A stretch of DNA of 56,768 bases, from assembly GCA_023252155.1 (NCBI GenBank), contig JAHEXJ010000006.1:1-56768 (forward strand). Direction: 5' to 3'. The translations under genes were made by a program, and so were the position numbers. Below, piece after piece: positions 18,424 through 26,446 of the stretch. Origin of the DNA: Actinomycetes bacterium. GTDB taxonomy: Bacteria > Actinomycetota > Actinomycetes > Nanopelagicales > Nanopelagicaceae. The number at the start of each line of letters is the position of its first letter. The stretch's first letter is position 1. Below the pieces are notes generated by a model that ran no database searches, was not told the DNA's origin, and worked only from the letters and a program-made list of their open reading frames with translations.

Positions 18424-20658
18424 TCAGATTTGGAATTGGGAAAGGACTGATTTCGGTGAATCGGCGCGAATATATACGGGGATTTGATCAATGGGCGTGG
18501 CCACTTCGATCCACTCTCCGCCTTGTCTCAGATTGTGGTCCCAAAAGTCTATCCAGACACCATCTGGTAAATACACACGTTGTGTCGTAACATCCGCCTC
18601 GATTACGGGACAGACCAACAAATATCGGCCCAGCATGTATTGATGTGGAGCGTTCCAAATTCCTGGATCGTCTGCGTAATCGAAGAACAATCCGGCCATC
18701 AAGGGCCTGCCCGACGAAATCGCTTCTACTCCTTCGCCTTCAAGGTAGGGGATTAGCATCTTTCGTATCTCTACGAATTTTCGAAATATTGGAAGAACTC
18801 GATTATCACCTGTTTGCTCTGCAATGTTCCATGGAGAACGATCGTTCGAGGGGACGACGTGGTGATTGAATTCAGAGTGGAATTGCATGATGGGGCAGAA
18901 CGTGGCCATCGCAGTGCCGCGTAGATAGAGCTCACTCGTTGGCAACTCACCACTGAATCCGCCGATATCCCAACCCCAGAAAAATAGTCCACTTGCCGAA
19001 GCGGTAATTCCGGCGCGCAACGTCGCCCTGAGCGCTTCCCACGTCGAGTCTTCGTCTCCGGCCCAAAAGGTGGGGTAAGAACTGCTGCCCGCAAAACCCG
19101 AGCGAGAAAAAGTGATCCCTTCTTTGTTTGATGACGCGAAGAGTTCGTGGAATGTCTGTGAGTAAGCGACGGGGAACGAGTTGTTCTTCTCCAGCCCGCA
19201 GCGCCCGTCTAAGTAGTGCAGATCTGATCCCCAAGCATGTTCACCTCCATCGGTTTTGAAGCCGTCCACGCCCATGTCATCCACGAGATAACGGTGCAGA
19301 TCACTCCACCACTGGCGTACGTTTTCGTCGGTGAGATCGGGCAATAATGCGTCACGAAACCACGGGACTCTCACTCGGTATGGATTGCCTTCGGCATCTT
19401 TGATGACAAGGTTTTTGTTGATGGCGTAATTCCACATTGCGTTGACTTGGGAACCTGGAGACCCCTCTTCTTTGATCACCGGTATCTGCCACAGCAAAAC
19501 CTTGATATCCCTATTGTGGAGGTCATCGATCATTTTTTGCGGATTGGGCCATGCGCCGTCTTTGGAGTATGTAATGTCGGATGCTCGTAGCCCTTTAGAG
19601 CCGTCGGTGGGTATGTATTTCCCGTCCCTAAAGACAGTGAATGTGGACTCGTCCGACCAGGCTTCAATTACGATGGCGCCGAGTTCGATGTCGTTATCAA
19701 GGCTCGCTTGAATTTCGGCTTCGACGCGTTCCTGGGTGTTCCATTCATTACTGCTGCCCCAAAGGGTGTATATCCACGATGGCGGCGCTTTCGGCAATTC
19801 AAATTCGCTCATGTAAGCATGCAGCATTTGGGTGGCTGAGCCTTCATAAGTTTTGATTTCCAAGTTTTGCTGATCAACGGACATGTCGACTTCAATTCTC
19901 AGACGGTCGGATTCCGTAGCACCGACGTCGTATCGACTCGGATTGGCCGTTTTCAAGTAGAAGCCATAATCACTTCCAACAATCATTCCAAACGGGGCCG
20001 GCAGATAAGTTCTATGGCCTTGACCTTTGTATTCCTCGTAAACGAGCGCATCCACGAATTCCCCACGTTGGTCGATCGCGTGGAAGCGTTCACCGAAGCC
20101 AATTACGTGGTCATTAGCGGTAAGGGGGAGAGCGAAGCGAACTCGAAAGACTTGGCCACTGGAATCCTTGAGTATTTCTTTGTCGGTGACGATGACCTCT
20201 TTGGGAAGGGTCCCGATTTGTTGGAGGTAGCCGTCCGTATCTGATTGCCACACCAGCGCACACAAAGAAAATGGATCTGTATGTTCTCCAGTGTCACTCT
20301 CCAACCAGTAAATGATCTCTTCAAAATCTTCGAGGAATGGCAGAGCGACTTCCCATTCCTTTTCGTCGATATTTTGCGTGGAAGAATGTGAAATCTCTGA
20401 TAGGTGAGTTTCTTTTCGGATGTATTTTGCAGTTTGCCCATACGGTCCATGTTCTTCAGGTGCCGGAGCTCCTAAGTAATGAAGTGGATGTATGTGGGTT
20501 ACTGACCCCCTTCGCAAGTGCAAGAAGACACCCTCAGTTTGGAGGTCGGTTCTTGCACGCACTTTCCAGGACTCGCCAGCAATTGGATGAGTTGGTATGC
20601 GTTGATCAGGCTCGTACCTATAAGGATGGCCGATGCCAAGTGGAGTGTGGCTAAGCAA
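18424..20658 (-). CDS. GH31 family alpha-glycosidase
   Basis: 744 aa GH31 enzyme: N-terminal beta-sandwich (galactose-mutarotase-like), then the catalytic barrel. The nucleophile is in GVDGFKTDGGEHAWG (about residue 430) and the acid/base in FWAGDEDSTW (about 500). No signal peptide, so cytoplasmic. Family members cleave or transfer alpha-1,6, alpha-1,3, alpha-1,4-glucosyl or alpha-xylosyl residues; next to GH66 and GH15 an isomalto- or nigero-oligosaccharide role is most likely (inference). The start is TTG 14 nt after the GH66 stop without a clear ribosome-binding site. Last glycosidase of the operon. Confidence 0.9.
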   Translation of the reverse strand: MLSHTPLGIGHPYRYEPDQRIPTHPIAGESWKVRARTDLQTEGVFLHLRRGSVTHIHPLHYLGAPAPEEHGPYGQTAKYIRKETHLSEISHSSTQNIDEKEWEVALPFLEDFEEIIYWLESDTGEHTDPFSLCALVWQSDTDGYLQQIGTLPKEVIVTDKEILKDSSGQVFRVRFALPLTANDHVIGFGERFHAIDQRGEFVDALVYEEYKGQGHRTYLPAPFGMIVGSDYGFYLKTANPSRYDVGATESDRLRIEVDMSVDQQNLEIKTYEGSATQMLHAYMSEFELPKAPPSWIYTLWGSSNEWNTQERVEAEIQASLDNDIELGAIVIEAWSDESTFTVFRDGKYIPTDGSKGLRASDITYSKDGAWPNPQKMIDDLHNRDIKVLLWQIPVIKEEGSPGSQVNAMWNYAINKNLVIKDAEGNPYRVRVPWFRDALLPDLTDENVRQWWSDLHRYLVDDMGVDGFKTDGGEHAWGSDLHYLDGRCGLEKNNSFPVAYSQTFHELFASSNKEGITFSRSGFAGSSSYPTFWAGDEDSTWEALRATLRAGITASASGLFFWGWDIGGFSGELPTSELYLRGTAMATFCPIMQFHSEFNHHVVPSNDRSPWNIAEQTGDNRVLPIFRKFVEIRKMLIPYLEGEGVEAISSGRPLMAGLFFDYADDPGIWNAPHQYMLGRYLLVCPVIEADVTTQRVYLPDGVWIDFWDHNLRQGGEWIEVATPIDQIPVYIRADSPKSVLSQFQI

Positions 20659-20672
20659 TGATCTGGCTAATC

Positions 20673-22259
20673 TCAGCTACTTGTGGAAAATGGAATATTA
20701 ACGATGGTCCACGCAGATTTGATATCAACTTCAATGCTCGATCGATTTCCCTCAGTTTTGAGTGCTTTGAGGTCGAACTGCGCACCGCCTGTACCGTGGG
20801 CAAACGAAGCCTGGTTTGAGAAACCGGCTGCTTCAATGGAGATTGTCAGCTTTGATTTCGATGAAATAGGCTTCTTTGGCGTATCCCAAATGCAGTCGTC
20901 TTGATCGAGAAGATTTATAACGTGGAAGGTAAGCCCTGTCTCACCACCGAAGACCCTGATCCAGAGATGTTTAGAAATCGCCTCGTGACTAATTGGGTCA
21001 GCCGATTCAAATTTGATTTCATTATTCACTCCAAAAGCGTTGATGAGTGTGACATCAACTCGCGTCTTGTCGTAGATCAGGTCGCCTGCGGCAACCAGGA
21101 AATCGTAGTATTTTTGAATAGTATTCAATGTAGATTCTGGAGCTACATAGTTGTTTACATAATATGCGTGGTGAAGAATTCGACCGTCGCCTCCTGTGAT
21201 TAGATGTGAAGCACCGCCAGATGTCACACTTGCAAATGCCAACTCAAAGGAAGCAACAGCCTCTGACTCTTCGACACCCTTACCGATGGCACCAAATGGA
21301 TGCAGATAGGCCGAAAGTATTACGGGTTTTGAAGGATCTAGTAGGCGTGCTTTCGTGGCCAGATCAGCCAGATCCCTATATGTGGAATGAGGATCCCATA
21401 CCTCGATATAGGTCGCGTGTTGCGGAGTCTGCGTGGTACTCCATGTTGGATAGTCATTTACGTTATTGAAAATGAGCTTGCAATCAGGAAGCTCTTTCAC
21501 CATCTCGTTTAGCATCGCTGGAAACCTCTCAGCAAGATCTACTGCGACCCCATCGGCCCTAAGTGCGTTCTTTGGCCAACCATATTGATCGAGATGGAAG
21601 GCCGTGAAGCCGAAGTCATGTGCACTCTTTAGTTGTGAAATCATATGCATTAGCCAAGCTGGGTCAGCGGGATCGACTATCCACAAGAAATTATCACCCA
21701 GTGTGTAGGGATTGCCTTCGGTGTCGAATAACCCCGCCTTCTTCCATCGCTCCCATCCTTCGGCATCAACGGCATAAATCGCTGCGTATCCAGATGCCGT
21801 GGCACCTACGTTGAGGTATCCGCGAATCAGCTCCTTGATTTTTTCAGTTGAAATTTGCTGTCCAAGTGGATCTGGATAGTGTGATTCGGACGTTGTTAGA
21901 AATTCATGCTTCCAAGCCCAGTCGTAAAATTGGATCGCAGTTAAGTGAAGTTTCTGTGCCCATTTCACATAGTCTTGGGTTTTCACTAAATCTGAAAATT
22001 CGGCGATGAAGCCGTATCGCATTCTCTCCCAAGGGTTTTGAAGAACTTCGAAAGCCGAACTGATAGTGCTTCCATCGGAGTTAGTCCAACGGAGCGAGTA
22101 AGCCCCTTCAGGGAAGGTCCCTAAATTGAATTCAGCGCCACTTTTTGAATCTGAAATTGGCAAGCCAAGATGAGATACAGATACGGCTCCAGAATCTGGA
22201 GCTATTCCCGTGATCTCCTCTGTTGGAAGATATGAAACCTTGTCGAATATCAGATCCAT
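20673..22259 (-). CDS. GH66 family enzyme (dextranase / cycloisomaltooligosaccharide glucanotransferase type)
   Basis: 528 aa protein with GH66 hallmarks: N-terminal beta domain, catalytic barrel beginning NPWERMRYGFIAEF, the putative nucleophile Asp in FHLDQYGWPK (about residue 225), the acid/base Glu in YIEVWDPHS (about 288), and a C-terminal beta domain. GH66 enzymes are endo-dextranases or cyclise/open alpha-1,6-glucans. Characterised members are usually secreted and longer; this one has no signal peptide and no obvious CBM35 insertion. ATG starts 2 nt after the GH15 stop, so translation is coupled. Confidence 0.85.
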   Translation of the reverse strand: MDLIFDKVSYLPTEEITGIAPDSGAVSVSHLGLPISDSKSGAEFNLGTFPEGAYSLRWTNSDGSTISSAFEVLQNPWERMRYGFIAEFSDLVKTQDYVKWAQKLHLTAIQFYDWAWKHEFLTTSESHYPDPLGQQISTEKIKELIRGYLNVGATASGYAAIYAVDAEGWERWKKAGLFDTEGNPYTLGDNFLWIVDPADPAWLMHMISQLKSAHDFGFTAFHLDQYGWPKNALRADGVAVDLAERFPAMLNEMVKELPDCKLIFNNVNDYPTWSTTQTPQHATYIEVWDPHSTYRDLADLATKARLLDPSKPVILSAYLHPFGAIGKGVEESEAVASFELAFASVTSGGASHLITGGDGRILHHAYYVNNYVAPESTLNTIQKYYDFLVAAGDLIYDKTRVDVTLINAFGVNNEIKFESADPISHEAISKHLWIRVFGGETGLTFHVINLLDQDDCIWDTPKKPISSKSKLTISIEAAGFSNQASFAHGTGGAQFDLKALKTEGNRSSIEVDIKSAWTIVNIPFSTSS

Positions 22260-22261
22260 TG

Positions 22262-23377
22262 CTAGTTCGCTCCTTCGTTAAGCATGAGTAGATACATTGC
22301 GTGTGACCAAAGTAAAGGTGTTGCCACTGGTCCCCATCGTTTGACCCAAGGTGCAACCATCTCTGGGTCCTGAGTGCCTTGAATGCTTTGCTCAGGCAAT
22401 TCCAAAGTTTCGGTGGCTTGGTCAACGATCCATTGTTGGGCGGATTCGAAATCTGCTTCGTTACCCGTAAGTCGGTCATACCAACCAAGCCAACTGGTAA
22501 GAAGTATCCACTCGCCACCACCGAAGTATGTGTCTCCAAGGTAGCGATGAATTCCACCAGTTTGGCCACGCAGATCTGTTCGAATCGCCTCAACTGTCTT
22601 CACGAAGATTGGATTATCCAATTCAACGAGTCCCAGAGGAAGTGCTATCCAGAGCAAGCTCGAATCCACTCGATCGTCGCTAAATCCTTTGCAAAATCTT
22701 CCATCCCTCACAAAGTTGGCAAGTAGAGAATCAAGAACATCATTTGCTTCCTGGATGTATTTTTCCTCGCCCAAAAGTATTCCGGCGCTGTTAAGGCCTG
22801 CAGAGATCGCCGCGACAGTCGACGCGTGCTGCCCGTCTCCGAATTCCTCCCAACAATCAAAGCAGTTAGTCTTCCAGGTGGCGGACAGGTACCTGGCAAC
22901 TAGGTCAACCACTTCCGCATTAAAGTCGGTATTTCCCAATTTTTCGTGGTGTCTTCTTAGTTCGGCAAGCCACAGGCCGTAGCCATCCAACTGATAGTTA
23001 GGCCACGCCGAATTCTCCAACTCACCGAATTTTTCTAGTGCTCCGTCCAATGTATAGCGAGTCGGTAGCATCTCATCCATGTGAGGCAGTTCGCCGTTAT
23101 TAAGGCGGAGTATGAGTGATTCGGCAGCGTCTTTCTGTTCTAAAAGTGTTCGTTCCGCCCATCGATGGAATCTTGTAGCCGAATCAGAATTGCCAACGGA
23201 ATCCATCGCCATGGCGCAATAAGCGCCATCTCTCAACCAAGAAAAGTTGTATGTAGGGAAATTCGGGGATGCGACGTAAGCGCCGGAGGGTGCTTGACCA
23301 GCAAGTATCACCTCAATACTTTTTAAGCCCAGCCCCCCGTCAGCGGTAGTCAAAGGAGTTTCTAAGGGGAAGGCCAT
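22262..23377 (-). CDS. GH15 family glucoamylase/glucodextranase-like enzyme
   Basis: 371 aa, essentially only the (alpha/alpha)6 barrel of GH15. Visible landmarks are NFSWLRDGAY (about residue 48), YQLDGYGLWL (about 130), the general acid in FDCWEEFGDGQHAS (about 175) and the general base in LPEQ (about 333). GH15 exo-enzymes release beta-glucose from chain ends with inversion. The N-terminal beta-sandwich of bacterial glucodextranases is missing and there is no signal peptide, so a cytoplasmic enzyme acting on imported short chains is inferred. Confidence 0.85.
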   Translation of the reverse strand: MAFPLETPLTTADGGLGLKSIEVILAGQAPSGAYVASPNFPTYNFSWLRDGAYCAMAMDSVGNSDSATRFHRWAERTLLEQKDAAESLILRLNNGELPHMDEMLPTRYTLDGALEKFGELENSAWPNYQLDGYGLWLAELRRHHEKLGNTDFNAEVVDLVARYLSATWKTNCFDCWEEFGDGQHASTVAAISAGLNSAGILLGEEKYIQEANDVLDSLLANFVRDGRFCKGFSDDRVDSSLLWIALPLGLVELDNPIFVKTVEAIRTDLRGQTGGIHRYLGDTYFGGGEWILLTSWLGWYDRLTGNEADFESAQQWIVDQATETLELPEQSIQGTQDPEMVAPWVKRWGPVATPLLWSHAMYLLMLNEGAN

Positions 23378-23383
23378 TATTCT

Positions 23384-24229
23384 TTATCCTTTCAAAGCAT
23401 CTGCGGAGAGTCCGCGGATAAACTGTCGTTGAAATAGAGCAAAGACCACAATCACCGGAACAATTGCGATCGTCGAGGCTGCAAAGACGAGTCCCCAATT
23501 TGTCAGGTGCTGTCCTTGAAAAACAGAAATGGCAATTGGGAGAGTTCTCTTATCTGGGTCATTTATTATTGTGAGAGCCCACACGTATTCGTCCCAACAT
23601 GCTAAGAACGTGAAAATACCAACCGTTGCCAGCGCCGGCCTCGAGAGGGGGAGAATCAGTCTCCAGAAGCGTCGAAATGCTCCCGCGCCGTCCATGATCA
23701 TTGCCTCTTCAAGTTCCCACGGAATTTCTTCAAAGAATCCTCGAAGGAGGAATGTATTGAATGCTAAATTCGTGGCAACATAGAAAAGGATGAGCCCGAT
23801 AAGAGAGTTGATGAGATGCAACTGATTTGCGAGCAGGTACTGCGGTATCAGGAGCATCATCCCGGGCACCATTAAACCCACAAGCAGCAACCAGAACATG
23901 ATGTTCTGCCCCTTGAAGTTGAAACGCGCGAAGGCGTAAGCCATCATGGCGGACAAAAGAGCTGCGAAAACTGTCGATATCACAGAGACAAAAACCGAAT
24001 TGGCAAAATAATGGCCGAAGCTATTCGATGTCCAAGCGTCCGTATAGTTGCTCAGAGTTGGATGCTTGGGAATGAATTGTGGCGGAATTTCAAATAGGTA
24101 TAGCTGCGGTTTAAATGAGGTCGCAAATAGATATAGGAACGGAATGATCATTATCGCGGCGCCGACTATGAGCGTCACATAACGCAGCACTCTGAAAGTG
24201 ATCTGCCTCTTCTTACTGCCGACTATCAT
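23384..24229 (-). CDS. Sugar ABC transporter permease (MalG-like, CUT1)
   Basis: 281 aa inner-membrane permease of the CUT1 family with six hydrophobic segments and the cytoplasmic EAA loop (EEAMIMDGAGAFRRFWRLILPL, about residues 185-205) that docks the ATPase. The start overlaps the stop of the first permease by 4 bases (ATGA). No ATPase gene lies in the operon. Confidence 0.93.
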   Translation of the reverse strand: MIVGSKKRQITFRVLRYVTLIVGAAIMIIPFLYLFATSFKPQLYLFEIPPQFIPKHPTLSNYTDAWTSNSFGHYFANSVFVSVISTVFAALLSAMMAYAFARFNFKGQNIMFWLLLVGLMVPGMMLLIPQYLLANQLHLINSLIGLILFYVATNLAFNTFLLRGFFEEIPWELEEAMIMDGAGAFRRFWRLILPLSRPALATVGIFTFLACWDEYVWALTIINDPDKRTLPIAISVFQGQHLTNWGLVFAASTIAIVPVIVVFALFQRQFIRGLSADALKG

Positions 24230-25161
24230 CGGACCACCCTTGTTACGCCGCCTCTAAAGAGGCGCATTTGGACAAACGAAATTCCAAAAACAATGATCGC
24301 GAGCGTGAAGGCAAGGGCCGATCCGTAGCCGAAGTCCAGGAACTGGAAAGCTTGGTGGTACATGTAGCTGAGAACGACCTCTGTTTGTTGCTGTGGGCCG
24401 CCTCCGGTCATGATAAACGCGGACGTGAAGACGTTGAGACTTCCGATCACCAGCATTATCGTGACAAAACTCAGAGTTAAACGTATCGACGGAAGTGTGA
24501 CGCTAAAGAAGGATCGCCACGGGCCAGCACCATCAATGGCGGCGGCTTCTGTTAGCGAATCTGGCACACCCATTAGCGCTGCTAGGAAGATCAACATCGA
24601 CCAGCCAACACCTTTCCAAACTCCCAAGATGCCAATAGTGATCATCGATGGCCAACGTGTGTCGAGCCAACCAATATTGTGGGAGGAAAGATGTAAGAAG
24701 CTGTGAAGAACCCAGTTTACAAATCCAGCATCAGTGCTAAAGAGGAATTTAAAGAGCAAGGAAACAACAACCCAACTGGTAACAACGGGGATATAGAAGA
24801 GCGCTCTGAATAGTCCGCGCCCCGGGATCTTCCTAACGAGGAGCATCGCAACAGCGAGCCCAAATATTATTTGAAGCGGGACTGTAAAGACCATGTAGAC
24901 AGCTGCGTTTTCAAGGGCTCGCCAAAATACGGGGTCATGCATTTCCCGCACATATTGGTGCAAACCAACAAAGGTACTCGGAGATCCTGGAAAGACACCC
25001 CAATTGTAAAAACTTATTTGAAGTGCTCGAAAAATTGGATAGATAATCGTAAGTAAGAAAAGTAAAAAACCGGGTGCCAAAAAGATGTACGGGACAAACC
25101 CCGCTTTGGATGATTTTGACGGCCCGTGAGGAACGTTGGCCAGCACCGAAGTGCTGGCCAA
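24226..25161 (-). CDS. Sugar ABC transporter permease (MalF-like, CUT1)
   Basis: About 311 aa permease partner with the EAA loop (LTEAAAIDGAGPWRSFFSVTLP). The frame is open to TTG 25197, inside the binding-protein gene, but TTG 25161 has AAGGA 9 nt upstream and is preferred; GTG 25146 is another option. All three candidates lie in or just before a perfect 15-bp hairpin (25132-25165), so initiation is probably controlled by RNA structure. No ATG precedes the first membrane segment. Confidence 0.9.
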   Translation of the reverse strand: MASTSVLANVPHGPSKSSKAGFVPYIFLAPGFLLFLLTIIYPIFRALQISFYNWGVFPGSPSTFVGLHQYVREMHDPVFWRALENAAVYMVFTVPLQIIFGLAVAMLLVRKIPGRGLFRALFYIPVVTSWVVVSLLFKFLFSTDAGFVNWVLHSFLHLSSHNIGWLDTRWPSMITIGILGVWKGVGWSMLIFLAALMGVPDSLTEAAAIDGAGPWRSFFSVTLPSIRLTLSFVTIMLVIGSLNVFTSAFIMTGGGPQQQTEVVLSYMYHQAFQFLDFGYGSALAFTLAIIVFGISFVQMRLFRGGVTRVVR

Positions 25162-25165
25162 CGTT
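25132..25165 (-). promoter_or_regulatory. Perfect 15-bp hairpin with UUCG loop between binding-protein and permease genes
   Basis: On the minus strand AACGTTGGCCAGCAC and GTGCTGGCCAACGTT are exact complements around TTCG. C(UUCG)G is an exceptionally stable tetraloop. It begins 12 nt after the binding-protein stop and contains the likely TTG start of the permease. No U-run follows, so it is not a standard terminator. Probable roles are 3'-end protection of the binding-protein mRNA and reduced permease translation. Confidence 0.85.
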
Positions 25166-25177
25166 GAGCGTCCTTTT

Positions 25178-26446
25178 TTACTTGAGTAGTGGCTCAATTT
25201 GCGCCGCTGCCTCGTCCATTGCTGCTTGTGCAGTTACTTTGCCTGACATCGCTGCGGCAACTTCGGTTCCAATGATCGAATCGATCTTTGAATAGTTAGG
25301 AACTGGCGTACGTGCCTTCGCTGTTCCGAGTTGCTTTAGGAAGGTTGCGTAGTAAGGGTGAATTGCTGTTACCTGCTTGCTGAGGGCGCTCAATACCGAG
25401 AGCTGTCCAGCCTTGGTCATAGCAACTTGTGCACTCTTCGAGAGCATGAAGCGGACGAACGCCATCGCGGCCGGCTTGTTCTTGCTCTGTGCGGTGATGT
25501 TTATATCTTCGCCGCCGACAACGCTACTGCTTCCGCCAGCGCCTGCTGGAACGAGAGCCTCAACGGGGTGGAAGTTTGGATATCCGCCGCCCCAGATTGG
25601 GTTCATCCAAGGACCATCCAATGTCATTGCGTAGTTACCCTTTGCAACGCCATCGTAGGTGCTCATTCCACCGGATGCGCCTAGCATTGAATCTGGAATC
25701 GCGCCGGCCTTGTAAAGATCGGCCAGGAACTGGATTGCAGAAACTGTCTTTGCACCGTTGATGTAACCCTTGGCTGTCGTGTTGGTTGAGTTAGTTATTG
25801 CTCCGCCAGCTGACCAGATCCATGGCAAAACGTTCCACCCACCTGTACCGCCATCACCGTAAAGATAAATTCCCTGAGCCTTGAGGAGAGGGGCATCAGC
25901 CAACATGTCAGCGAAGGTCTTTGGAACAGTGGTGATTCCGGCCTTTGCAAATGCATCCATGTTCGCGAACATTACGCGTGTATTGGTATCAAGAGGCAAG
26001 CCGTAGTAGTGGCCACCGTAGTAGTTGGTTGAGAGAGTTCCTGGATAAACGGTCTTGGCCAGCTTGTCGAATCCAGCCATTTTGCCGTCTAGCTGAGCAA
26101 AAACCTTGCCTTGTGCAAACGTTGGAACCCAAGGTAGGTCAGAGCGAACTACGTCAGGAAGGGTATTCGTCATCGCACTTGTCAAGAGCTTCTGATAAAG
26201 ATCATCATGGCTGAAAACGACATGCTTGACGGTGATATTTGGATTTGCCTTTTCGAAAGCAGGAATCAAGGTCTGCTCAAGTGTCGGTGTCTCCGAAGTT
26301 GAATACGAAGTCCAAAATGTGATTGTAACTTTCTTACCGGATGAGGCGTCTGCATTGCTTACGACGCCGAACATTGAAACGAGAGACCCGATTGCAAGCA
26401 GAGCGACTGAACGCTTTGCCCACAAAGATCCTTTGCCTTTGGTCAT
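25178..26446 (-). CDS. Sugar ABC transporter substrate-binding protein
   Basis: 422 aa CUT1-type extracellular binding protein (SBP_bac family): after a Sec signal (about residues 1-36, hydrophobic VALLAIGSLVSMFGVV, likely cleavage after SNADA) comes VTITFWTSYSTSETPTLEQ and typical later blocks such as GLPLDTNTRVMFAN and GNYAMTLDGPWM. No lipobox cysteine is present, unlike most Gram-positive binding proteins. ATG with AGGAG upstream. Substrate inferred from the neighbouring glycosidases: alpha-1,6-linked gluco-oligosaccharides. Confidence 0.92.
   Translation of the reverse strand: MTKGKGSLWAKRSVALLAIGSLVSMFGVVSNADASSGKKVTITFWTSYSTSETPTLEQTLIPAFEKANPNITVKHVVFSHDDLYQKLLTSAMTNTLPDVVRSDLPWVPTFAQGKVFAQLDGKMAGFDKLAKTVYPGTLSTNYYGGHYYGLPLDTNTRVMFANMDAFAKAGITTVPKTFADMLADAPLLKAQGIYLYGDGGTGGWNVLPWIWSAGGAITNSTNTTAKGYINGAKTVSAIQFLADLYKAGAIPDSMLGASGGMSTYDGVAKGNYAMTLDGPWMNPIWGGGYPNFHPVEALVPAGAGGSSSVVGGEDINITAQSKNKPAAMAFVRFMLSKSAQVAMTKAGQLSVLSALSKQVTAIHPYYATFLKQLGTAKARTPVPNYSKIDSIIGTEVAAAMSGKVTAQAAMDEAAAQIEPLLK

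Follow-up and report, generated by a model that had tools for sequence, protein, structure and literature searches.

A putative scavenging operon for cyclic or linear alpha-1,6-gluco-oligosaccharides in an actinobacterium, combining a predicted cytoplasmic GH66 with a cycloalternan-type GH31

The window analysed here, a stretch of 56,768 nucleotides of actinobacterial DNA, carries a compact operon which probably serves to scavenge alpha-1,6-gluco-oligosaccharides, either cyclic (cycloisomaltooligosaccharides, CIs) or linear, with a range that would be widened to mixed alpha-1,6/alpha-1,3 pieces. This reading is built on directly observed features, namely gene order, protein families, catalytic residues, absence of signals, a conserved binding-site core and clade membership. 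Six genes follow each other on the minus strand, in the order SBP (solute-binding protein), permF, permG, GH15, GH66 and GH31 (Table 1), with intergenic spacings of -20, -4, +6, +2 and +14 bp. A previous sequence-only reading had described signal-less GH66, GH15 and GH31 genes, overlapping or nearly touching, downstream of a CUT1 transporter; the open reading frames, their spacings and the lack of leaders bear this out. The ROK regulator gene, omitted from that first description, is also part of the cluster and lies 106 bp upstream of the six genes.

Table 1. Genes of the cluster, with positions in the window.
Feature	Position	Strand	Basis and remarks
ROK-family regulator, 401 aa	26553..27758	-	Pfam ROK 5.8e-51; heads cluster
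Solute-binding protein (SBP), 422 aa	25178..26446	-	Pfam SBP_bac_1; TdCIBP relative; signal-like N-terminus
CUT1 permease subunit permF, 323 aa	24226..25197	-	Pfam BPD_transp_1
CUT1 permease subunit permG, 281 aa	23384..24229	-	Pfam BPD_transp_1
GH15, predicted isomaltose-glucohydrolase type, 371 aa, signal-less	22262..23377	-	Pfam Glyco_hydro_15 2.4e-19
GH66, 528 aa, signal-less, importer-linked clade	20673..22259	-	Pfam Glyco_hydro_66 4e-65
GH31, 744 aa, TTG start, probable cycloalternan-degrading enzyme / 1,3-alpha-isomaltosidase type	18424..20658	-	Pfam Glyco_hydro_31 4e-59

All Pfam assignments of the six operon genes scored above the curated cut-offs. None of the enzymes GH66, GH15 and GH31 has a hydrophobic leader, their homology reaching to, or almost to, the N-terminal ends of the related proteins, while the N-terminus of the SBP is a hydrophobic, signal-like stretch. 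No ATPase gene was found within the operon, MalK-type ATPases being encoded elsewhere in the genome. The host assembly, of 1.8 Mb and 84% complete, carries the operon on its contig C49; genome sizes among relatives in the family are about 1-2 Mb. Promoter and terminator scans yielded no more than expected by chance, and a four-way alignment revealed no clear conserved operator 5' of the SBP gene.

The nature of the imported sugar is best approached through the SBP. A phmmer comparison with all PDB chains gave 9XF5 as its best match (274.6 bits), the runner-up reaching 115 bits. This chain is TdCIBP, for which binding of CIs and of linear isomaltooligosaccharides, including IG4-IG7, has been established by calorimetry and crystallography (PMC13084667). 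The two proteins share 38.5% identity, and all nine side chains contacting Glc3 and Glc4 are identical (S63, E66, R115, D117, N168, W217, W290, E322 and R389). Uptake of alpha-1,6-gluco-oligosaccharides, cyclic or linear, as proposed from the sequence-only reading, is thus supported by a TdCIBP-related protein that keeps the core contacts. A maltose-binding function was also considered and is disfavoured, since the contact residues differ. Across the aligned GH66-linked SBPs of Actinomycetota, Chloroflexota and Bacillota, R115, D117, N168, W217, W290, E322 and R389 are invariant, and control SBPs of the maltose and laminaribiose types do not carry them as a set. GH66 loci do not have the seven-residue signature to themselves, since an SBP encoded on contig C101 of the same genome, beside GH13 genes and without GH66, keeps six of the seven. 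Two GH13 enzymes are encoded in this CUT1 operon on C101 (L063:2455-8645), and a LacI-type regulator adjoins it.

The periphery of the site has diverged more. Most contacts of TdCIBP with the outer glucoses are changed (T61S, D64T, R91V, Y94H, W275Y and D403G), a divergence that bears on ring size and on the preference for cyclic over linear ligands. R91 and W275 are listed as conserved among the CITase-linked homologues of TdCIBP (PMC13084667). Because they are replaced here, by V77 and Y264 respectively, the SBP is named TdCIBP-like and not a proven CIBP.

The GH66 protein matches its family profile (PF13199) with 220.8 bits against a cut-off of 23.7, and its Asp224 and Glu286 align with the catalytic pair Asp293/Glu355 of FjGH66. 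This Asp/Glu pair is invariant in all 21 importer-linked sequences. An intracellular CI-degrading dextranase has been reported for Paenibacillus sp. 598K (Mizushima 2019, as cited in PMC13084667); the present GH66 is likewise signal-less and adjoins a CI-type importer, a likeness in predicted location and in gene neighbours. The GH66 phylogeny, suggested as a check by the sequence-only reading, gave a clean split. Maximum-likelihood analysis of 42 GH66 domains yielded a tree in which a 100/100 branch separates 21 importer-linked, signal-less domains from 21 secreted or unlinked ones, and the three PDB structures added to the tree (8IU8, 3WNK and 9SJG) all fall on the secreted side. The importer-linked side spans Actinomycetota, Bacillota, Mycoplasmatota, Spirochaetota and Chloroflexota. 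The sequences were gathered with patterns derived from four actinobacterial GH66, so that the sampling is incomplete. Few genomes of the class carry a GH66 (3 of 395 sampled), and in the genus it was found in 3 of 21 genomes at a strict threshold. As a single clade across phyla, apart from the sampled secreted enzymes, the importer-linked GH66 looks new, and its membership of this clade argues for ring opening or endo-cleavage in the cytoplasm by the enzyme of the operon. The clean split also leads to a candidate annotation rule, according to which a signal-less GH66 beside a TdCIBP-like SBP would be annotated as a dextranase or CI hydrolase of the cytoplasm and not as a dextranase acting outside the cell. 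Both kinds occur side by side in Arthrobacter terricola, a named cultured strain, in which one of two adjacent GH66 genes falls in the importer-linked clade and the other in the secreted one (L021:7163-10409).

Whether rings are really used is the point on which a narrower form of the main reading departs. The operon would then take up only linear isomaltooligosaccharides released by the dextran digestion of others, and GH66 would be an ordinary cytoplasmic endodextranase, with no cyclic sugar involved. This is a serious possibility, to which we give appreciable weight, short of an even chance. The binding of IG4-IG7 by TdCIBP fits it, as does the loss in the SBP of peripheral ring contacts, D64 and W275 among them. 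Neither a CITase-type gene, the absence of which also fits, nor a secreted GH66 was found in the host genome, at 84% completeness. Against the linear-only form, the importer and signal-less GH66 adjoin, at three Bacillota loci (L018, L020 and L045), a secreted GH66 that groups with CITases and is encoded by a frame of 1,770-1,790 codons, an arrangement that links the cassette with CI metabolism.

The best PDB match of the GH15 is the isomaltose glucohydrolase of Kribbella flavida (KfIG; 1.7e-64, 38% identity). Its E177, E329 and A352 align with E178, E335 and A358 of KfIG, of which we take the two glutamates to be the catalytic general acid and base, assuming a 20-residue tag offset that is consistent with the alanine position. 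The position of this alanine, conserved in inverting GH15 enzymes, was taken from PMC12446779. The GH15 matches an isomaltose-glucohydrolase-like enzyme, with a predicted preference for isomaltose, and the trimming role after GH66 that had been attributed to it is supported at this level.

The GH31 carries an AIMA-like_N N-terminal domain (Pfam) and keeps the catalytic Asp motifs, with Asp470 in the nucleophile motif. Its closest PDB matches, over the full length, are 5F7S (1.1e-196) and 5I0G, followed by 5X3I, presumably the Kribbella enzyme. Assignment as an alpha-xylosidase, a MalA-type glucosidase or a YihQ-type enzyme was rejected, the NCBIfam scores lying far under their cut-offs and the cycloalternan-enzyme match being far stronger. 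5I0G is the cycloalternan-degrading enzyme of Trueperella pyogenes, and enzymes of this type act on nigerose at less than 0.1% of their activity on cycloalternan (PMC9061262), which makes a role as plain nigerose hydrolase unlikely for the operon GH31. It is best read as a hydrolase of the cycloalternan-degrading / 1,3-alpha-isomaltosidase type. Of the cleavage or transfer proposed earlier, cleavage fits this reading better than general action on alpha-1,6 bonds or transfer.

The gene order recurs in independent genomes and is therefore not due to chance. The six-gene order with GH31 was found in three genomes, including two metagenome-assembled ones, from Umea (L017, GH66 74% identical) and from palsa (L015, 39%). 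The five-gene core SBP-F-G-GH15-GH66 (L006, L007, L008 and L025) recurs in contig C78 of the host genome itself, in genome G015 and in one Chloroflexota MAG. The C78 copy (L006:102-5901) is a diverged second core, with 61% identity for GH66 and 47% for the SBP. At the Arthrobacter and G295 loci, a GH13 enzyme adjoins the importer/GH66 set and no GH15 was found. In genome G017, SBP-F-G-GH66 lie at the end of contig C95 (L009:1410-3227) with internal gaps in the permF and permG matches, and this locus may be decaying or misassembled.

The published cycloalternan route relies on GH31 and GH15 types (Tagami 2016, as cited in PMC9061262 and PMC12446779), and the operon could be viewed as mainly a system for cycloalternan or alternan oligosaccharides, in which GH31 opens the ring, GH15 completes the digestion and GH66 plays an accessory part on alpha-1,6 stretches. 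The two enzymes indeed correspond to the Kribbella cycloalternan pair by their nearest solved homologues. The regulator points in the same direction. In a sister genome (G013, contig C64), the five-gene core is immediately preceded by a complete cycloalternan-type operon, ROK-F'-G'-SBP'-GH15'-GH31 (L061:2173-9840), whose ROK is about 90% identical to that of the present operon; the two are orthologues in the same position beside a recA-like gene. We nevertheless consider this view unlikely, because the TdCIBP-like SBP shares only 27% identity with the cycloalternan-type SBP' of G013, and because GH31 is missing from the core in C78 and G015, and thus not essential to it, whereas no sampled copy lacks GH66. 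In G013, just after GH66, a GH31 C-terminal remnant persists (L008:8823-8996; 84% identity to residues 686-743 of the operon GH31), the rest of this gene being missing beyond the remnant. Reciprocal loss would be the simplest story, the terminal GH31 having disappeared from G013, which retains the cycloalternan operon, and the body of that operon from the host lineage, which retains the terminal GH31.

The remaining view, that GH66 is a glucanotransferase making cyclic sugars inside the cell, has in its favour that CITases belong to GH66 and that the AlphaFold model (mean pLDDT 93) matches dextranase and CITase structures equally (Z 37-42), a fold that does not separate hydrolase from transferase; it is nonetheless highly improbable and a CITase was ruled out, since the operon enzyme lacks the inserted module seen in CITase (about residues 409-534 of 3WNK), the alignment passing from 408 to 535 in the CITase and from 331 to 337 in the query, since the clade is apart from CITase, and since cytoplasmic ring synthesis next to an importer and hydrolases would make little sense.

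Returning to the scavenging of cyclic or linear alpha-1,6-gluco-oligosaccharides, we infer from homology the pathway steps, the actual ligand, the cleavage products, the ROK effector and the division of labour. The SBP would catch the sugar outside the cell, and the two permeases would import it, powered by a shared MalK/MsiK-type ATPase encoded elsewhere. In the cytoplasm, GH66 would open rings and cleave internally, giving short isomaltooligosaccharides, GH31 would take off alpha-1,3-joined isomaltosyl units, such as occur in cycloalternan, in fragments of alternan or at the branch points of dextran, and GH15 would convert isomaltose to glucose. The ROK protein may sense a pathway sugar. More tentatively, as a broader proposal about which we remain rather doubtful, the operon could stand for a dedicated route, joining those for CIs and cycloalternan, by which glucans or rings with both alpha-1,6 and alpha-1,3 bonds are broken down in the cytoplasm, with a distinct and structurally unstudied intracellular GH66 clade in at least five phyla, and with non-producers feeding on the cyclic sugars of their neighbours.

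The sequence-only reading knew of no described pathway with this trio of enzymes, a statement that holds only in part. The core is already known: PMC13084667, citing Mizushima 2019, describes both the uptake of CIs by Paenibacillus sp. 598K and their breakdown inside the cell as demonstrated by experiment, and a scheme with importer, intracellular dextranase and isomaltose glucohydrolase was proposed for Tepidibacillus decaturensis (Takei 2026, PMC13084667). The exact cytoplasmic trio of GH66, GH15 and GH31 was not found described in the open-access literature searched, which also yielded nothing relevant on cycloisomaltotetraose. What looks new is the joining of a five-gene CI-type operon to a cycloalternan-type GH31, and an actinobacterial form with no CITase detected. 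In the described cases, the same Bacillota make cyclic alpha-1,6 sugars outside the cell, import them and consume them. An importer with a cytoplasmic GH66 in actinobacteria in which no CI-forming enzyme was detected suggests the uptake of such sugars made by others.

With the Paenibacillus 598K and Tepidibacillus systems, the operon shares a homologous importer SBP with its core contacts, a signal-less dextranase, an isomaltose glucohydrolase and an organization lacking an ATPase gene, as in the TdCIBP operon (PMC13084667). It differs from them in that their CIs are made by a secreted CITase, of which none was found in the host genome, and in that GH66 and GH15 lie here inside the importer operon, with GH31 added, in an actinobacterial host. 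The GH31 and GH15 have relatives in the cycloalternan (CNN) catabolism of Kribbella flavida (Tagami 2016, as cited in the papers above) and in the Trueperella pyogenes enzyme, but they are combined here with a CI-type SBP and GH66, the full cycloalternan-type operon being a separate one in G013. The branched-dextran locus FjDexUL of Flavobacterium johnsoniae (PMC10316084) also brings together GH66 and GH31, its substrates being alpha-1,6 glucans that bear alpha-1,3 branches. Its GH66 is a predicted outer-membrane lipoprotein, its GH31 a predicted periplasmic dextranase and its uptake is of the SusC/D type, whereas in the present operon all enzymes are predicted to be cytoplasmic and uptake would proceed through an ABC importer.
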